A DNA stretch of 35,410 nucleotides from Defluviitaleaceae bacterium (GTDB taxonomy: Bacteria; Bacillota; Clostridia; Lachnospirales; WRAX01): NCBI GenBank assembly GCA_009785555.1, contig WQWB01000010.1, positions 1 to 35,410 on the forward strand, read 5' to 3'. How positions within the stretch are numbered: the first letter of the stretch is position 1; every line of letters starts with the position of its first letter. Below, one piece after another: positions 3,870-35,410 of the stretch. A model generated the notes under the pieces. The model saw only the letters and a list, made by a program, of their open reading frames with translations. It did no database searches and was not told where the DNA came from. Made by a program: the position numbers and the translations under genes.

Positions 3870-6800
3870 TTATACCCCTTTATTTACAGTTTTTACTACA
3901 ACATTCTTATCCCCAAGCAACGCCTTAAGCGAAAGTATCAGTTTCACATCATCAGCGTTTGCATTGTACTCGACGGATATATTCAGCCGTTGCCGCGTCT
4001 TTTCATCATACGCGATGACCGGGTTCTTACCAGGGTGCTTTTGTAAGGTTTCAAGTATCTTGCTATACGGCACGGTCGTGTCCTTAGCCAGTTTTAGCCA
4101 CAACTCGTCATAAGCCTTTTCTTCCGCGGTTGCTTGCATAATGCGGATATCGTTGCACACGACCTTGGCCGCCTCACCCTCGCGCACGCTGGCGCGGCCC
4201 ATTGCAAGAATGGCCGTACCCGTTGCCAACTGCAGTTCATACTTCGCAAAGAGGTTTGGGAAAACGATCAACTCAACCTCGCCGTACATATCCTCAATGG
4301 TAACGAATGCCATCGCTTCGTTCTTTTTCGTGTATTTTGTAGTTTTCGAGGTTATAATCCCACCCACAGTACAGGAAGCATTGTCTTCAATCAATACACT
4401 TTCGCCTATTTCGTTCGGATCGCCGCCATCCTCGGCCTGGGCCATAAAATCCCGGCTTGTGGCGGTTATTTTAGAGGAATACAGCCCCTCGTACGTTAAG
4501 TATGGGTGCCCGCTCACATATATCCCAAGCATTTCTTTTTCATCACTGAGGCGCAGGCTGTCTGGGAACTCGGGGATATTGGGCAGATCGTCGGCAAGAT
4601 TCTGCTCCTGTTCATCGCTGCTCATCAAGTCAAACAGGCTTACCTGCCCTTCCAGCACGTTCTTCTTCGTATCGGACGAGCTGTCCATAAGCGCAGCGAA
4701 GACAGAAATGTACTGGCTGCGCTTGCCGCCTAAACTGTCAAGCGCGCCGGCGCGGATAAGGCACTCCATCGCACGCTTATTAAGGTACTGGCTGTCCATC
4801 CTACTGATAAAATCCGATAAGCTCTTATACGGCCCTCGCTCACGCTCCTTTACGATTGCGTTGACCGTTTGCCGTCCTACGTTTTTAATAGCGTTAAGGC
4901 CGAAGATTATCGCATTTTTGTCCGCGGTGAAACGCCCAAAACTCCTGTTCACATCAGGTGGGCTGACCTGCAGATTCATTTTCTTACATTCGGAGATATA
5001 CGCAGATACACTACTCGGACTGTCTAGTACGGAGGATAGCAAAGCCGACATATACTCAAGCGGATAATGATATTTCAGCCACGCTGTTTGATACACCAAA
5101 TAAGCATATCCCGCCGAATGGCCTTTTGGAAAAGCGTAACGGGCGAAATCCTCCATCTCGTCCCATATACGCTCAGCTATCTCGCGGGGGATACCGTTTG
5201 CCACGCAGCCCGGCACGCTGTTCTCGTCATCATTGAGGCCGTTGATAAAGTAATTCTTCTCCATCGCCATAACGTCTGCTTTTTTCTTGCTCATAGCGCG
5301 GCGGATAAGGTCACCGCGGCCGTATGAATAGCCGGCTAAGTCACGCACGATTTGGATAACCTGCTCCTGGTATACGATACACCCATATGTTTCCCTCAAT
5401 ATCGGCTCCAACGACTTATGCGTATAGCGCACCGCGCCACCGTTTTTGTTGCGTACAAATTTCGGTATAAAATCCATGGGGCCAGGGCGGTACAGGGCAA
5501 TGCCGGCACATATATCATCCAAGCTCGACGGCCGAAGCTCCTTCATAAAACTCTTCATCCCACCGCTTTCGAGCTGGAAAACGCCTTCCGTGTTCGCTTT
5601 GGATATGCTGTCGTAGACACGCTTATCACCATAATCCATAGTGGCCGGATCTACCACGACATTATGTCGTCGTTTCACCTCGTCTATGGTTTTTTTGATG
5701 ACGGTTAGGGTACGCAAGCCAAGGAAATCAAATTTAAGAAGACCCAATTCTTCCAACGTGTTCATGGTAAATTGTGTCGTGATTAAGCCATCGTTCGTGT
5801 TGAGGGGTATGTAGTCGTCCACCGGCCTATCACACACCAAAACGCCAGCGGCGTGGGTTGATGCGTGGCGTGGTAGGCCCTCCAGTTTCATAGCCATGGT
5901 AATAAGGTGGCGGATAGGCGGCTCAGCATCATACCGCGCCTTCAAATCTTTGTTGATTTCAAGCGCAGACTTTAAATCCGCGCCGAACGGTATCATCTTC
6001 GCCAACCTGTCCACATCGCCGTACGGCATAGCAAGGGCCCGGCCAACGTCGCGCACAGAGGCTTTGGCGGCCATCGTGCCGAAAGTAATGATCTGAGCGA
6101 CATGGTCTTCACCGTACGTACGGTTTACGTAGTCTATAACCTCGCCGCGCCGCTCATAGCATATGTCCAGATCGATATCCGGCATGGAGATGCGTTCCGG
6201 ATTAAGAAACCTCTCGAAGATAATGTTAAACCTATATGGGTCAACAGTTGTGATATCCAGCAGATAGTTTACGACGCAGCCGTTGCCGCTGCCGCGTACA
6301 CCGATGTTTATGTCGTTATCCCTGGCGAATTTAACGGCATCCCAAACAACCAGGAAATACATGGCGTAACCCATTTTCCCGATAACGCTGAGTTCGTGAT
6401 CAAGCCTTGATGTAACCTCGTTGGCTTGTTCCCTGTATTTTACAGGCAAGGCCGCCTCACACAGTTGCCGTAAATATCCATCGGCCGTTAAATTGTCCGG
6501 CAGAGGAAACTTAGGCAGTTTATATTCGTTAAACCGTATCTCAACGTTACATCTGTCTGCAATTTCCGCCGTATTTTCAAGCGCAATTGGTATGTGCGCA
6601 AACTTTTTCCGCATCTCTTCGGGTGAAGTAAGGTAAAACCCGCCGCCGGGGTAAGACATGCGGTCAGGGTCATTCACCGTCTTGTTGGTTTGTATACAAA
6701 GCAAGATATCGTGGGATTCCGCATCGTCTTCGAAAATATAATGGACGTCGTTTGTAGCAACGAGGGGAATGCCCGTTTCTTCACTCATACGGATAAGCTC

Positions 6801-31524: not shown

Positions 31525-32763
31525 TCAACTTAACGGACTAACAAGCAGGTTTTTATAAGTATCAACATTGTCACCTCGTATACCCTTAAATACTCCGCCG
31601 CATGTAATAAAATGCTGGCTGCGCTTTAAAGATACGCCGAGCTTTCTTAACGCATCATGTGTCAGCCTGCATTGCCTGCGCGCGCGGACAATCCGCTCCG
31701 CGTAGGTCGTGCCTATACCCGGCGTGCGCAGAAGCATCTCGTAATCCGCCGTATTTACCTCTATCGGGAACATGTGGATATTCCGCAATACCCACGCGGC
31801 CTTGGGGTCTAAGTCCTGCACCAAATCGGGTTCCGCGTCGGGCGCTATCTCTTCCGGCGTAAAGCCGTACAGCTGCATAAGCCTGTCCGCCTGGTACAGG
31901 CGTTTCATCCGCCACACGGGCGTAGCGGTGCGCGGAAGCTCACTATACCCCTTAGCTGACCAGGTATAGTGAAACGGCGTGTAATATACGCGTTTTAAAT
32001 CATATTTTTTATATAGCGCGTTTGATAGTCGCAATATCTCAAAATCGCTCTCACCAGTACTTCCGGCCATAATCTGTGTCGCCTGCGACGTGGCCGCGTT
32101 AAACATACCGAATGCGCCGTACGAATATCGGTTTTTCGCCGCTGCTGATTTCCGCTCCTTATTGGCCTTAACAAGGCTGTGGATATGACCCATCGGCGAC
32201 AAAATCTTATCCTTGCTTTTGTTTCGCGCAATTTGGGAATACCCCTCTGATTTAGCAACCTCTATGTTTATGCTCATACGGTTGGCGTAAAGGCTTGTTT
32301 GGCGGATAAGCTCATAATCCGTACCCGGCATAACCTTTGCGTGTATAAATCCTGTATAATGGTGAATGTTCCTGATAATCTTAACCGTCTCAAGGATAAG
32401 CTCACCCGTGTTATCGGCGTTTTTGCATACTGCGGAGGAAATGAAGATGCCTTGGCGGCTTTCCCTTGCCACTTTAACCGATATATCAGCCAGGTCTTTG
32501 GGTGTATGGGTATACCGGTCGTGGTTATCCTCACTTATACGCAGGCCGCAGTAGGCGCAGTTAAAAACACAGTCGTTTGACGCCATTATCTTAGGCAAAG
32601 CCGGTAAAGTGCCTTTAGAGCGCACATCGTCTCTTATAGCCAATAAATCTGGTCCATAATCCTCGTCACCATTACCGTCAGCCACGTCAAAAGCAGCGTC
32701 ACGCTGCATCTGCCGTATTTTGTCAAGTGCGGTTATATTCGGTTTAATAATAACATTTGCCAT
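31525..32763 (-). CDS. Radical SAM protein, putative DNA modification/repair type with helix-hairpin-helix
   Basis: A 412-residue protein. The iron-sulfur cluster motif is C65-x3-C69-x2-C72 (CVFNCAYC), followed by ISSAVCKNADNT. The C-terminal end has a helix-hairpin-helix DNA-binding motif (LLRTPGIGTTYAERIVRAR). This layout fits the family annotated as putative DNA modification/repair radical SAM protein, usually next to a DUF4130-type protein; that partner is not here. Start ATG 32763 has GGAG 7 nt upstream. A long inverted repeat lies in its promoter region (32803-32853). Confidence 0.9.
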   Translation of the reverse strand: MANVIIKPNITALDKIRQMQRDAAFDVADGNGDEDYGPDLLAIRDDVRSKGTLPALPKIMASNDCVFNCAYCGLRISEDNHDRYTHTPKDLADISVKVARESRQGIFISSAVCKNADNTGELILETVKIIRNIHHYTGFIHAKVMPGTDYELIRQTSLYANRMSINIEVAKSEGYSQIARNKSKDKILSPMGHIHSLVKANKERKSAAAKNRYSYGAFGMFNAATSQATQIMAGSTGESDFEILRLSNALYKKYDLKRVYYTPFHYTWSAKGYSELPRTATPVWRMKRLYQADRLMQLYGFTPEEIAPDAEPDLVQDLDPKAAWVLRNIHMFPIEVNTADYEMLLRTPGIGTTYAERIVRARRQCRLTHDALRKLGVSLKRSQHFITCGGVFKGIRGDNVDTYKNLLVSPLS

Positions 32764-32785
32764 ATAAAAGCTCCAAACACAAAAT

Positions 32786-32815
32786 TTTATATCGGTATTA
32801 TATTTGAAATAGCAA
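32786..32815 (-). promoter_or_regulatory. Candidate promoter for the radical SAM gene
   Basis: Minus strand: -35-like TTGCTA (32810-32815), inside the inverted repeat arm, an 18-bp spacer and TATAAA (32786-32791). A separate TATAAT at 32797-32802 is an alternative -10 without a good -35. Confidence 0.35.
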
Positions 32816-32853
32816 CAAAGTTTTAGCAAGCTAAATTTTGTTGCTATTTCAAA
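32803..32853. repeat. 51-bp near-perfect inverted repeat upstream of the radical SAM gene
   Basis: The arms TTTGAAATAGCAACAAA (32803-32819) and 32837-32853 are perfect 17-bp reverse complements. They enclose TTTAGC-aa-GCTAAA with only 3 unpaired bases between. It has no T tract typical of a terminator. The rest of 32854-32970 is AT-rich without a gene. Confidence 0.85.
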
Positions 32854-32971
32854 GTAATTCCTCTATATTATAAATCAAGTAGTTTCATTTGTCAACATTT
32901 TGTTGAAATTATTTCTCTTTAATTGTTTTTGCACATCATAATTTTTTTGATCCCGTTATTGCTTAAAAAAC

Positions 32972-33000
32972 TTGCATTAATACGCATTCCATGCTATACT
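32972..33000 (+). promoter_or_regulatory. Sigma-A promoter for gyrB
   Basis: -35 TTGCAT (32972-32977), a 17-bp spacer and -10 TATACT (32995-33000), about 30 nt before the ATG leader. Confidence 0.75.
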
Positions 33001-33035
33001 TAAATTCTTAAATACATTTATGGAGAAACGATAAA

Positions 33036-35009
33036 ATGCACGATAATAACGCCGGAAATAATATTGTCAATAACGAGGAAATCAACTTCACCGAAAATAC
33101 CGCGGCTGAATACAGCGCAGACCAGATCGAGGTGCTTGAGGGGCTTGACCCTGTTCGCAAACGCCCTGGTATGTACATCAGTTCCACCTCCATACGCGGC
33201 CTTCACCAGCTCGTACACGAAATCATGGACAACGCGGTAGACGAAGCGTTGGCCGGCATCTGCACGGATATCTTTATCACAATACATGCGGACAACTCCG
33301 TTACCGTGTCAGATAACGGCCGCGGCATACCAGTCGGCATGCACAAAACCAAGGGTGTGTCCGCGCTCCAACTCGTTTACTCTACGCTACACGCTGGCGG
33401 CAAGTTCGGCGGGGACAATTCTGGTTATAAGGTTTCCGGCGGCTTACACGGCGTAGGCGCAGCGGTCGTAAACGCGCTTTCCACGGAGTGTATCGTCACC
33501 GTTAAGCGTGAGGGTAAAATACATCAAATAAAGTTCTCCAGAGGGGATTTGGTCTCGCCCCTTGCCATTATCGGCGATTCGGACGAAACGGGCACGACCG
33601 TACATTTCAAGCCTGACCCCGAAGTTTTTGAGGATATCGTATTCGATTTCGATACCTTAAAACAGCGTGTACGCGAAACAGCGTTTTTGACTAAAGGCCT
33701 TAGCCTTACGCTAAAAGATGAGAGACAAGACCCGGAAATGGAGCGCACATACCTCTACAAGGGCGGAATATCCGAGTTCGTGGAGCATGTAAATAAAAAC
33801 AAGACACCGATTTTCGACAAAATCTTCTACACCGAAGCCGTGCGTGAGGACATCCACGTCGAGGTGGCCCTCCAATACAACGAAAACTTCACCGAAACGA
33901 CATACTCTTTCGTCAACAATATTAACACGATCGACGGCGGTACGCATATGGTTGGTTTCCGCGCCGCGCTGACGAAGACCATTAACGACTACGGACGCAA
34001 GTTCGGCCTACTCAAAGAGAATGACAAAAACCTAAGCGGGGACGATGTACGCGAGGGGTTAACGGCAGTTATCAGCATTAAAATACAGGAGCCTCAGTTC
34101 GAATCGCAAACAAAGGTTAAGCTAGGCAACTCCATAGCCCGCACCGCCGTTGAATCCGTGATGAACGAGTATTTTAAATATTTCCTTGAAGAAAACCCGG
34201 CTATCGGCAAGTCCATCATAGATAAAGCTCTTCTTGCATCCCGCGCTCGCGAGGCGGCTAAAAAGGCACGCGACCTCGTGCTTCGCAAATCTGCATTAGA
34301 AGGCAACCGCCTACCCGGCAAACTTGCAGACTGCACAGAAAAGGATCCGGCAAAATGCGAAATCTTCCTTGTTGAGGGTGATTCGGCCGGCGGTTCTGCC
34401 ATCGGCGCAAGAACATCAAAGACGCAAGCCATTCTCGGGTTAAGGGGCAAACCGCTTAACGTGGAGAAAGCGCGGTTCGACAAAATCCTTGAAAACGAGG
34501 AAATCCGCGCGATGATAACGGCCATCGGTGTTGGCATTAAGGACGACTTTGATATAGCCAAGCTCCGCTACCACAAAATAATAATCATGGCTGACGCGGA
34601 CGTGGACGGCGAACATATCCGCACACTCCTCCTCACTTTTATCTACCGCTTTATGCCGCAACTTATCGACGACGGCTATGTATACATCGCACAGCCGCCG
34701 TTGTTTAAGATTGAGCATCGCCGTCAAATTAAATATGCCTACTCTAACGATGAATATCAGCGCTTGATTAAGGAATATCCGCCAGATGCGCGCCCAACTG
34801 TGTCCAGGTATAAGGGTTTGGGCGAAATGAACAAGGAACAGTTGTGGGAAACAACAATGGACCCAGAGCGGCGTGTGCTGAAGAAAGTGACGATAGACAG
34901 CCATTTCGAGGCCGATGACATCTTCACCCGCCTTATGGGCGAAAAGGTCGAGCCGCGGCGCGAGTTTATCGAAGAGTATGCGGCAACAGTACGGGAGTTG
35001 GATTTTTAA
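33036..35009 (+). CDS. gyrB: DNA gyrase subunit B
   Basis: A 657-residue type IIA topoisomerase ATPase subunit. The GHKL ATPase domain has [38 protein letters not shown] and [19 protein letters not shown]; the Toprim domain has [11 protein letters not shown] (near residue 447) and [14 protein letters not shown] (near 519); the end [20 protein letters not shown]...[11 protein letters not shown] is GyrB-like. With GyrA it introduces negative supercoils. It has an N-terminal extension of about 28 polar residues before the usual start. ParE is less likely, but gyrA is not seen next to it. GGAG lies 10 nt upstream. Its last 31 codons are the first unit of a 161-bp tandem array. Confidence 0.9.
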
Positions 35010-35410
35010 CACACGCCATACGCTCATGCACTGCTACCCGGCAACCCGCGCCAGCCACTTCGGGTTTAAAGGGGGACGACATCTTCACACGCCTTATGGG
35101 CGAAAAGGTTGAGCCGCGGCGCGAGTTTATCGAAGAGTATGCGGCAACGGTGCGGGAGTTGGATTTTTAACACACGCCATACACTCATGCACTGCTACCC
35201 GGCAACCCGTGCCAGCCACTTCGGGTTTAAAAGGGGACGACATCTTCACCCGTCTTAGGGGCGAAAAGGTCGAGCCGCGGCGCGAGTTTATCGAGGAATA
35301 CGCGGCAACGGTGCAGGAGTTGGATTTTTAACACACGCCATACACTCATGCACTTCTACCCGGCAACCCGTGCCAGCCACTTCGGGTTTAAAGGGGGACG
35401 ACATCTTCAC
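34914..35410 (+). repeat. 161-bp tandem repeat containing the 3' end of gyrB
   Basis: Units begin at 34914 (inside gyrB), 35075, 35236 and 35397, exactly 161 bp apart; the fourth is cut by the window end. Each unit holds 31 codons from GAYGACATC to GATTTT, a TAA, and about 65 bp of downstream DNA ending in CGGGTTTAAA. The non-coding part contains AACCCG...CGGGTT, a weak hairpin. Units 2 and 3 have no start codon or ribosome binding site in the gyrB frame, and 161 is not a multiple of three. No other gene is seen in 35010-35410. Confidence 0.95.

Follow-up and report, generated by a model that had tools for sequence, protein, structure and literature searches.

The long perfect palindrome that separates a radical SAM gene from a divergent gyrB-type gene in the genome of a Defluviitaleaceae bacterium can be read, with good confidence, as the truncated remnant of a mobile repeat of MITE-like type, now sitting at the promoter of the radical SAM gene. 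The feature is non-random and its explanation is ordinary: it is a piece of a MITE-like family, a kind of repeat that is well known. The family itself is new as far as we have seen, with no convincing member in the other collections searched. By "the window" we mean the whole stretch of DNA that was analysed, 35,410 nucleotides in length; the host draft genome from which it comes comprises 1,685,546 bases in 109 contigs and is 83.7% complete.

The palindrome is present as an earlier note on this DNA had described it, with two perfect 17-bp arms that make up 51 bp together with their spacer (Table 1). Lengthening the arms to 21 nt leaves 9 nt between them and a complementarity of 95%. Folding of the palindrome as single-stranded RNA gives z-scores of -8.2 (plus strand) and -6.8 (minus strand), and folding as single-stranded DNA gives -7.1; each of these is better than 200/200 shuffles. 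The earlier note had also remarked on the absence of a T tract at the hairpin; an intrinsic terminator was rejected as a candidate, with 0 terminator-like sites in 32700-33060. Judged against 16 full copies in the same genome, the palindrome is the right-hand third of a longer element, of which the window copy keeps hairpin 3 and the right end and nothing else. A degenerate left terminal repeat, TATCGGTATTA, was considered in the window copy and is not relied on, because the stretch is very AT-rich. The window has two further ends with one mismatch; one, at 4470, falls within an ORF, the other is at 35289, and both look like chance matches.

Table 1. Features at the palindrome and its neighbouring genes in the window, parts of the full element, and shortened forms in the host genome
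Feature	Position	Strand	Basis or remark
Gene for a TIGR03916-like radical SAM protein (putative DNA modification/repair)	31525-32763	-	E 8.5e-98
GGAG, likely ribosome-binding site for the radical SAM gene	32771-32774	-	read from the sequence
Promoter-like pair TTGCTA-18-TATAAA	32786-32815	-	TTGCTA 32815-32810, TATAAA 32791-32786
Left 7-bp direct repeat TATTATA (TATAATA on minus)	32796-32802	+	adjoins the 63-bp unit 32803-32865
Palindrome, hairpin 3 of the MITE-like family	32803-32853	none	folding, repeat matches
Left arm TTTGAAATAGCAACAAA	32803-32819		perfect over 17 bp
Right arm TTTGTTGCTATTTCAAA	32837-32853		perfect over 17 bp
Promoter-like pair TTGCTA-17-TATATT	32841-32869	+	TTGCTA 32841-32846, TATATT 32864-32869
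Right end of the element GTAATTCCTCTATA	32854-32867	+	identical or near-identical right end in full copies
Terminal inverted repeat ATTCCTCTATA	32857-32867	+	exact TATAGAGGAAT on minus at 32867-32857
Right 7-bp direct repeat TATTATA	32866-32872	+	
Predicted promoter TTGACA-17-TATAAT	32867-32895	-	12/12 match, read leftward into the palindrome
Possible promoter of the gyrB-type gene, TTGCAT-17-TATACT	32972-33000	+	TGC before the -10 box; read from the sequence
DNA gyrase subunit B-type gene, divergent neighbour	33036-35009	+	TIGR01059, 937.7 bits, above cut-off
Hairpin 1 of the full element			GTTCGTAGAATAACTAC-ATGC-GTAGTTATTCTACGAAC
Hairpin 2 of the full element			GGCTGGG...CCCAGCC
Hairpin 3 of the full element			the palindrome, stem extended by TAC/GTA
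Shortened form: hairpin 3 and right end only	window, C1:46373		n=2
Shortened form: left end with hairpin 1 or hairpins 1-2 only	C56:6804, C3:53084, C2:46568, C20:738		n=4
Shortened form: two-ended, 45-60 bp			n=7
Shortened form: end fragments			n=13

The evidence for a repeat family comes mainly from the copies. Together with its right flank, the palindrome occurs 17 times in the genome (the window and 16 others) at 83-98% identity, with opposite-strand self-matches of the hairpins left out of the counts, and in 16/16 of the non-window copies the similarity runs on leftward of the palindrome. The earlier note had allowed that many scattered copies would mean a plain dispersed repeat, and the 16 further copies largely bring about that outcome. 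The full element measures 143-152 bp, about 147 bp (n=16 full copies), and is laid out as TATAGAGGAAT, hairpin 1, hairpin 2, hairpin 3 and ATTCCTCTATA; that is, three adjacent and near-perfect hairpins are enclosed by 11-bp terminal inverted repeats. The terminal stem is paired in 95.4% of cells across the 16 copies. As single-stranded DNA, one full copy (L002) adopts a closed three-arm fold of -57 kcal/mol (z -15.6).

When covariance-model and end-sequence matches are combined by eye, at least 42 places carry the element, 16 of them in full and at least 26, including the window, in shortened form. The end search, which permitted up to one mismatch, returned 122 matches; many of the one-mismatch ends are chance matches, because the same pattern read backwards gives 42. 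The tally of shortened forms is a lower bound, made by eye from the 100 of 122 end matches listed, minus 29 one-mismatch ends. A length of 60 bp and an identical internal junction are shared by five of the short forms, which lie at five separate places, with 49 to 56 of 60 positions alike and C11:27169 the most diverged. The deleted 60-bp form may itself have been copied; alternatively, it may have arisen by repeated deletion at a 4-base match. In the other copy that consists of hairpin 3 and the right end (C1:46373-46436), the arms AAACAGTAAAAA diverge much from the family. The palindrome appears to outlive its own sequence, because these arms differ so much and still pair.

Most of the full copies lie between genes. 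Among ORFs of at least 90 codons, from which smaller overlapping ORFs were dropped, 11/16 full copies touch none, 4/16 run at most 20 bp into the 3' end of an ORF, and 1/16 overlaps just a doubtful 5' extension, the ORF in question having its likely ATG beyond the element. A glyoxalase-like and an iron-dependent-repressor-like ORF both end in IEECS encoded by the element, and a third ORF ends in the element-encoded residues IEELL, as would be expected of insertion at gene ends. Copies are found upstream and downstream of genes and between convergent genes, in either orientation to their neighbours. Nine flanking proteins, chosen from 31 flanking ORFs, were scanned, and no shared function is evident among them: they comprise an AraC-type HTH protein, an abhydrolase-like protein (below cut-off), a TIR/NB-ARC protein, GH3, HTH_3, BacA, glyoxalase and iron-dependent repressor proteins, and one without a family. 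The TIR-domain and NB-ARC gene (L004:1601-3058) lies 36 bp after one full copy.

At the window site, the earlier note overlooked a predicted promoter, TTGACA-17-TATAAT, which is directed toward the radical SAM gene and is one of three sites that pass a promoter scan of 361 bases (32700-33060). It is the only exact match with a spacing of 16-18 across the window, its simulated chance within the 272-bp intergenic stretch is 0.00065, and the T with which it finishes also opens the element end. The number of sites passing the scan is at chance level (3 vs 2.3 +/- 1.9 in shuffles). The two outward pairs noticed earlier, TTGCTA with TATATT at 17 bp and with TATAAA at 18 bp, are located as had been said, but look weak as promoters. 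TTGCTA-17-TATATT matches at 9/12 positions and is the sole one of the two to pass the scan, from whose sites TTGCTA-18-TATAAA is absent. Across the 17 copies, TTGCTA stands 17 bp from a TATA in 7, a variant hexamer does so in 2 more, and the remaining copies have the two motifs at other spacings or not at all. A conserved outward promoter of the family was therefore rejected. When all 17 copies were scanned to 90 bp from each end for at least 10/12 matches, L012 (before an HTH_3 gene) had a 12/12 site reading in, L004 a 10/12 site reading in and L005 a 10/12 site reading away. In short, the earlier suggestion of a small mobile palindrome that supplies promoters survives as far as a dispersed, MITE-like family is concerned, but gains no support as regards the supply of promoters: the strong promoter is located beyond the element and is directed into it. 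For the gyrB-type gene, the TTGCAT of its possible promoter is too weak for the scan.

Homologues of the radical SAM gene bear on how the site may have arisen. The protein matches TIGR03916 at 328.2 bits, under the curated cut-off of 343.5. Seven homologues were found, of which the closest two (L134 and L135; 67% and 66% identical) come from records titled Defluviitaleaceae bacterium. Both have TATAAT or TATATT 36 nt before the ATG, and neither has a comparable palindrome in the stretch of upstream sequence read. They also share TGCGAACATACATGCGA directly after the -10 box (L134:3400-3500, L135:3400-3500), which we take to resemble the LexA/SOS box of Firmicutes and which is not seen in the window.

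A 63-bp unit that contains the palindrome is bounded on both sides by TATTATA, with a probability of about 4e-4 for a fixed boundary; because the boundary was picked after the repeat was seen, the true odds are milder. The -10 box that originally served the radical SAM gene likely lay at the left repeat. If the flanks are joined without the unit, they read TTGACA-17-TATAAT and place the -10 box at 39 nt from the ATG (36 in L134 and L135). The simplest history would be insertion at the -10 box with the promoter left intact; full insertion, followed by deletion of the left part and with the 7-bp repeat arising by chance, would also do. The full copies (n=16) show no duplication in excess of shuffled pairings, and the window repeat is therefore unlike them and points to another route or to chance. 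TA stands at both ends in 15/16 full copies, equally in shuffled pairings, and is inseparable from the repeat itself.

Our preferred reading, that of a shortened MITE-like copy, can be put as a sequence of steps. The copies would owe their movement to a trans-acting transposase that works on the ends, and the window copy would retain the right end and hairpin 3 of such a moved element. With the unit at the -10 box, TTGACA-17-TATAAT would stay whole and the transcript start would shift into the element. A predicted start near 32860 on the minus strand would give a leader of about 97 nt, with the hairpin as its first feature, and the hairpin stays intact when this predicted leader is folded. Because the promoter reads into the palindrome, the radical SAM mRNA probably carries it as a stem-loop at its 5' end. 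Such a stem-loop may change mRNA stability or RNase III processing, by analogy with Correia elements, and an operator role would not be needed for the palindrome. A bolder version, which we regard as rather unlikely, makes hairpin 3 and the right end a mobile module in their own right, whose 63-bp unit, with a 7-bp duplication, would have landed exactly at the -10 box, rebuilt the promoter and provided the gene with its 5' stem-loop. If it were true, small palindromes could act as portable stabilisers of mRNA 5' ends or as portable RNase III sites.

Several other readings have to be weighed. The earlier note proposed an operator for divergent transcription, and the palindrome could accordingly be the operator or bidirectional promoter of the radical SAM/gyrB pair, its arms bound by a dimeric protein. 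It does sit amid divergent genes, its arms are symmetric, and the TTGCTA boxes are plausibly spaced on either side. However, the same kind of sequence is found at 16 other places, the nine scanned flanking proteins lack a common function, the boxes are at chance level and occur in a minority of copies, and no such palindrome was seen upstream of the two closest homologues. We hold this reading to be extremely improbable. An operator of a wider regulon was rejected on the same lack of common function. A further idea of the earlier note, that the palindrome is a site recognised by the radical SAM system itself, found no backing either: 0/9 scanned flanking proteins match the radical SAM family, and the homologues speak against it in the same way.

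A conserved structured RNA or cis-regulatory RNA, as opposed to mobile DNA, seems very unlikely, and here the stems themselves provide evidence on both sides. In 12 pairs and 35 cells both sides of a stem have changed, a level reached by 0/500 shuffles (6.8 pairs and 11.4 cells there), and some copies lie upstream of genes with promoters reading in. RNA that acts in one sense would prefer G-U mispairs. The mispairs observed comprise 23 G-U vs 21 A-C and 10 others, with neither strand preferred, and further pair types number 29 vs 29.5 in shuffles. Searches with Rfam 15 gave 0 matches at the gathering score in the window and in the loci L002, L012, L017 and L019, each with a full copy, and copies stand in either orientation to their neighbours, even between convergent genes. 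Because neither G-U nor A-C mispairs are favoured, we infer that the mispairs are better accounted for if the palindromes are maintained as DNA, whether through transposition or because one arm serves as template for the other.

If the family is mobile, the one RAYT-like Y1 transposase of the genome could be what moves it, which would make the palindromes unusual REP relatives with terminal repeats; we find this unlikely. In its favour, a 164-aa Y1_Tnp protein is present, its gene (C3:54260-54754) has the shortened copies C3:53084-53174 and C3:56521-56580 at distances of 1.1 and 1.8 kb, both less than the mean spacing of copies, and hairpin 2 begins with GTAG on the minus strand in many copies. 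RAYT-type genes with flanking terminal inverted repeats are also reported in PMC3733652. However, the gene is flanked by, and contains, another repeat, CGTAGGGGCGAAC; this other repeat, as CGTAGGGGCGNNC, has 37 exact sites in the genome vs 4 in the control, and no TATAGAGGAAT end lies within the 801 bases read around the gene. The Y1 transposase thus looks as if it belongs to a separate system. At the RAYT-like gene itself (L142:1459-1953; G000:C3, minus), GTAGGGGCGAAC palindromes occur on both flanks, and two GTAGGGGCGAAC-type stretches lie inside its reading frame, reading ...NVGANCVRQ... and ...RRTQFAPT.... Elsewhere, at G000:C20:12733-12759 and G000:C2:36007-36033, left ends of the element continue into a GTAGGGGCG repeat at the common letters GTTCGTAG, a junction that looks like the product of recombination between the two families or of insertion of one at the other's GTAG.

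The search for a parent transposase gave nothing further. DDE_3, the family that we take to represent IS630, and DDE_Tnp_1 are absent from the host draft at its 83.7% completeness. Five pairs of facing ends, 1.8-3.4 kb apart (C2, C5, C6, C8 and C12) and drawn from the 100 of 122 end matches listed, enclose ORFs in which no transposase was recognised by eye.

Beyond the host, and as far as the searches reach, the family looks private to the species or genus. A DNA search of 57 relatives, none of them congeneric, gave nothing convincing, namely two hits that are weak (E of 0.003 and of 0.005, each for one genome), against some 0.6 expected at the limit used. The exact left end has 0 matches in genome_contigs and viral_contigs, from which very near records may have been left out, and one copy used as query has 0 matches among plasmids and phages. 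A covariance model run on 15 other family members gave one match, in G007 (25.2 bits, E 1.9e-4); it was rejected as a copy, since the 351 bases read there form a different hairpin that is richer in G+C and is without TATAGAGGAAT. The papers listed by literature searches, in which the sequence itself cannot be used as a query, include none on this family.

The outcome gives a lone puzzle, the perfect palindrome lying ahead of a DNA-repair-type gene, its place in an annotatable family of repeats, and it cautions against taking every palindrome between divergent genes for an operator. The near-fully paired layout of three hairpins and the recurring 60-bp deletion form make the family a case for studying how bacterial MITEs shrink and possibly continue to move, and the window copy offers a candidate example of a MITE fragment absorbed into an mRNA leader.

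By comparison with known systems, the element is best classed as MITE-like. At 143-152 bp the unit is too short to hold a transposase gene, it is bounded by the terminal inverted repeats TATAGAGGAAT/ATTCCTCTATA, and its 16 full copies and their derivatives are dispersed and mainly intergenic. In PMC2229807, bacterial MITEs are described as shorter than 200 bp, AT-rich and mainly intergenic, mostly with terminal inverted repeats, 5'TA3' ends and target duplications; the present element fits these features, though for the target duplication its TA ends and the 7-bp repeat of the window copy give no clear sign either way. The RUP element of Streptococcus pneumoniae (107 bp) is likewise intergenic, with terminal inverted repeats and TA in the target, but has a likely parent, IS630-Spn1 (PMC2229807), whereas a DDE_3 gene was not found in the draft here. 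The CIR repeats of Caulobacter and Brucella resemble our element in having several stem arms on linkers instead of one end-to-end stem, and are set apart by the two arms and GANTC motif described for them in PMC2229807, in contrast to three arms and terminal repeats here. The REP/RAYT system is also palindromic and extragenic, and a REP-RAYT locus exists in the host genome. However, GTAG-tagged REPs are given as 20-40 bp with an unpaired tag (PMC3733652), whereas the unit here measures about 147 bp and is closed by terminal inverted repeats, and it is the CGTAGGGGCGAAC repeats that the RAYT locus bears.

The closest likeness is to the Correia (CREE/NEMIS) elements of Neisseria, which, according to PMC2649163, are mostly 104-108 or 153-157 bp long and end in TATAG[CT]GGATTAA. 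The ends differ, being TATAGAGGAAT followed by G or TAC here, and the neisserial core patterns of that source were not seen by eye, so that neither the Correia end nor the core is present as such, and the element is not put forward as a Correia element. Three separate hairpins are found here, whereas end-to-end pairing prevails among such elements (PMC2229807); about 120-250 copies are reported for CREE, more than here, and the phylum is another. Nevertheless, full and shortened length variants occur in both (PMC2649163). At mtrCDE, a CREE separates the native promoter from the genes, and within the mRNA it is cut by RNase III (PMC2649163); action of RNase III on the present element is a guess from this analogy. 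The window copy likewise lies between a predicted promoter and a gene, and by analogy the Correia element, even in its TATAG.GGA ends, is the nearest working counterpart of the family described here.
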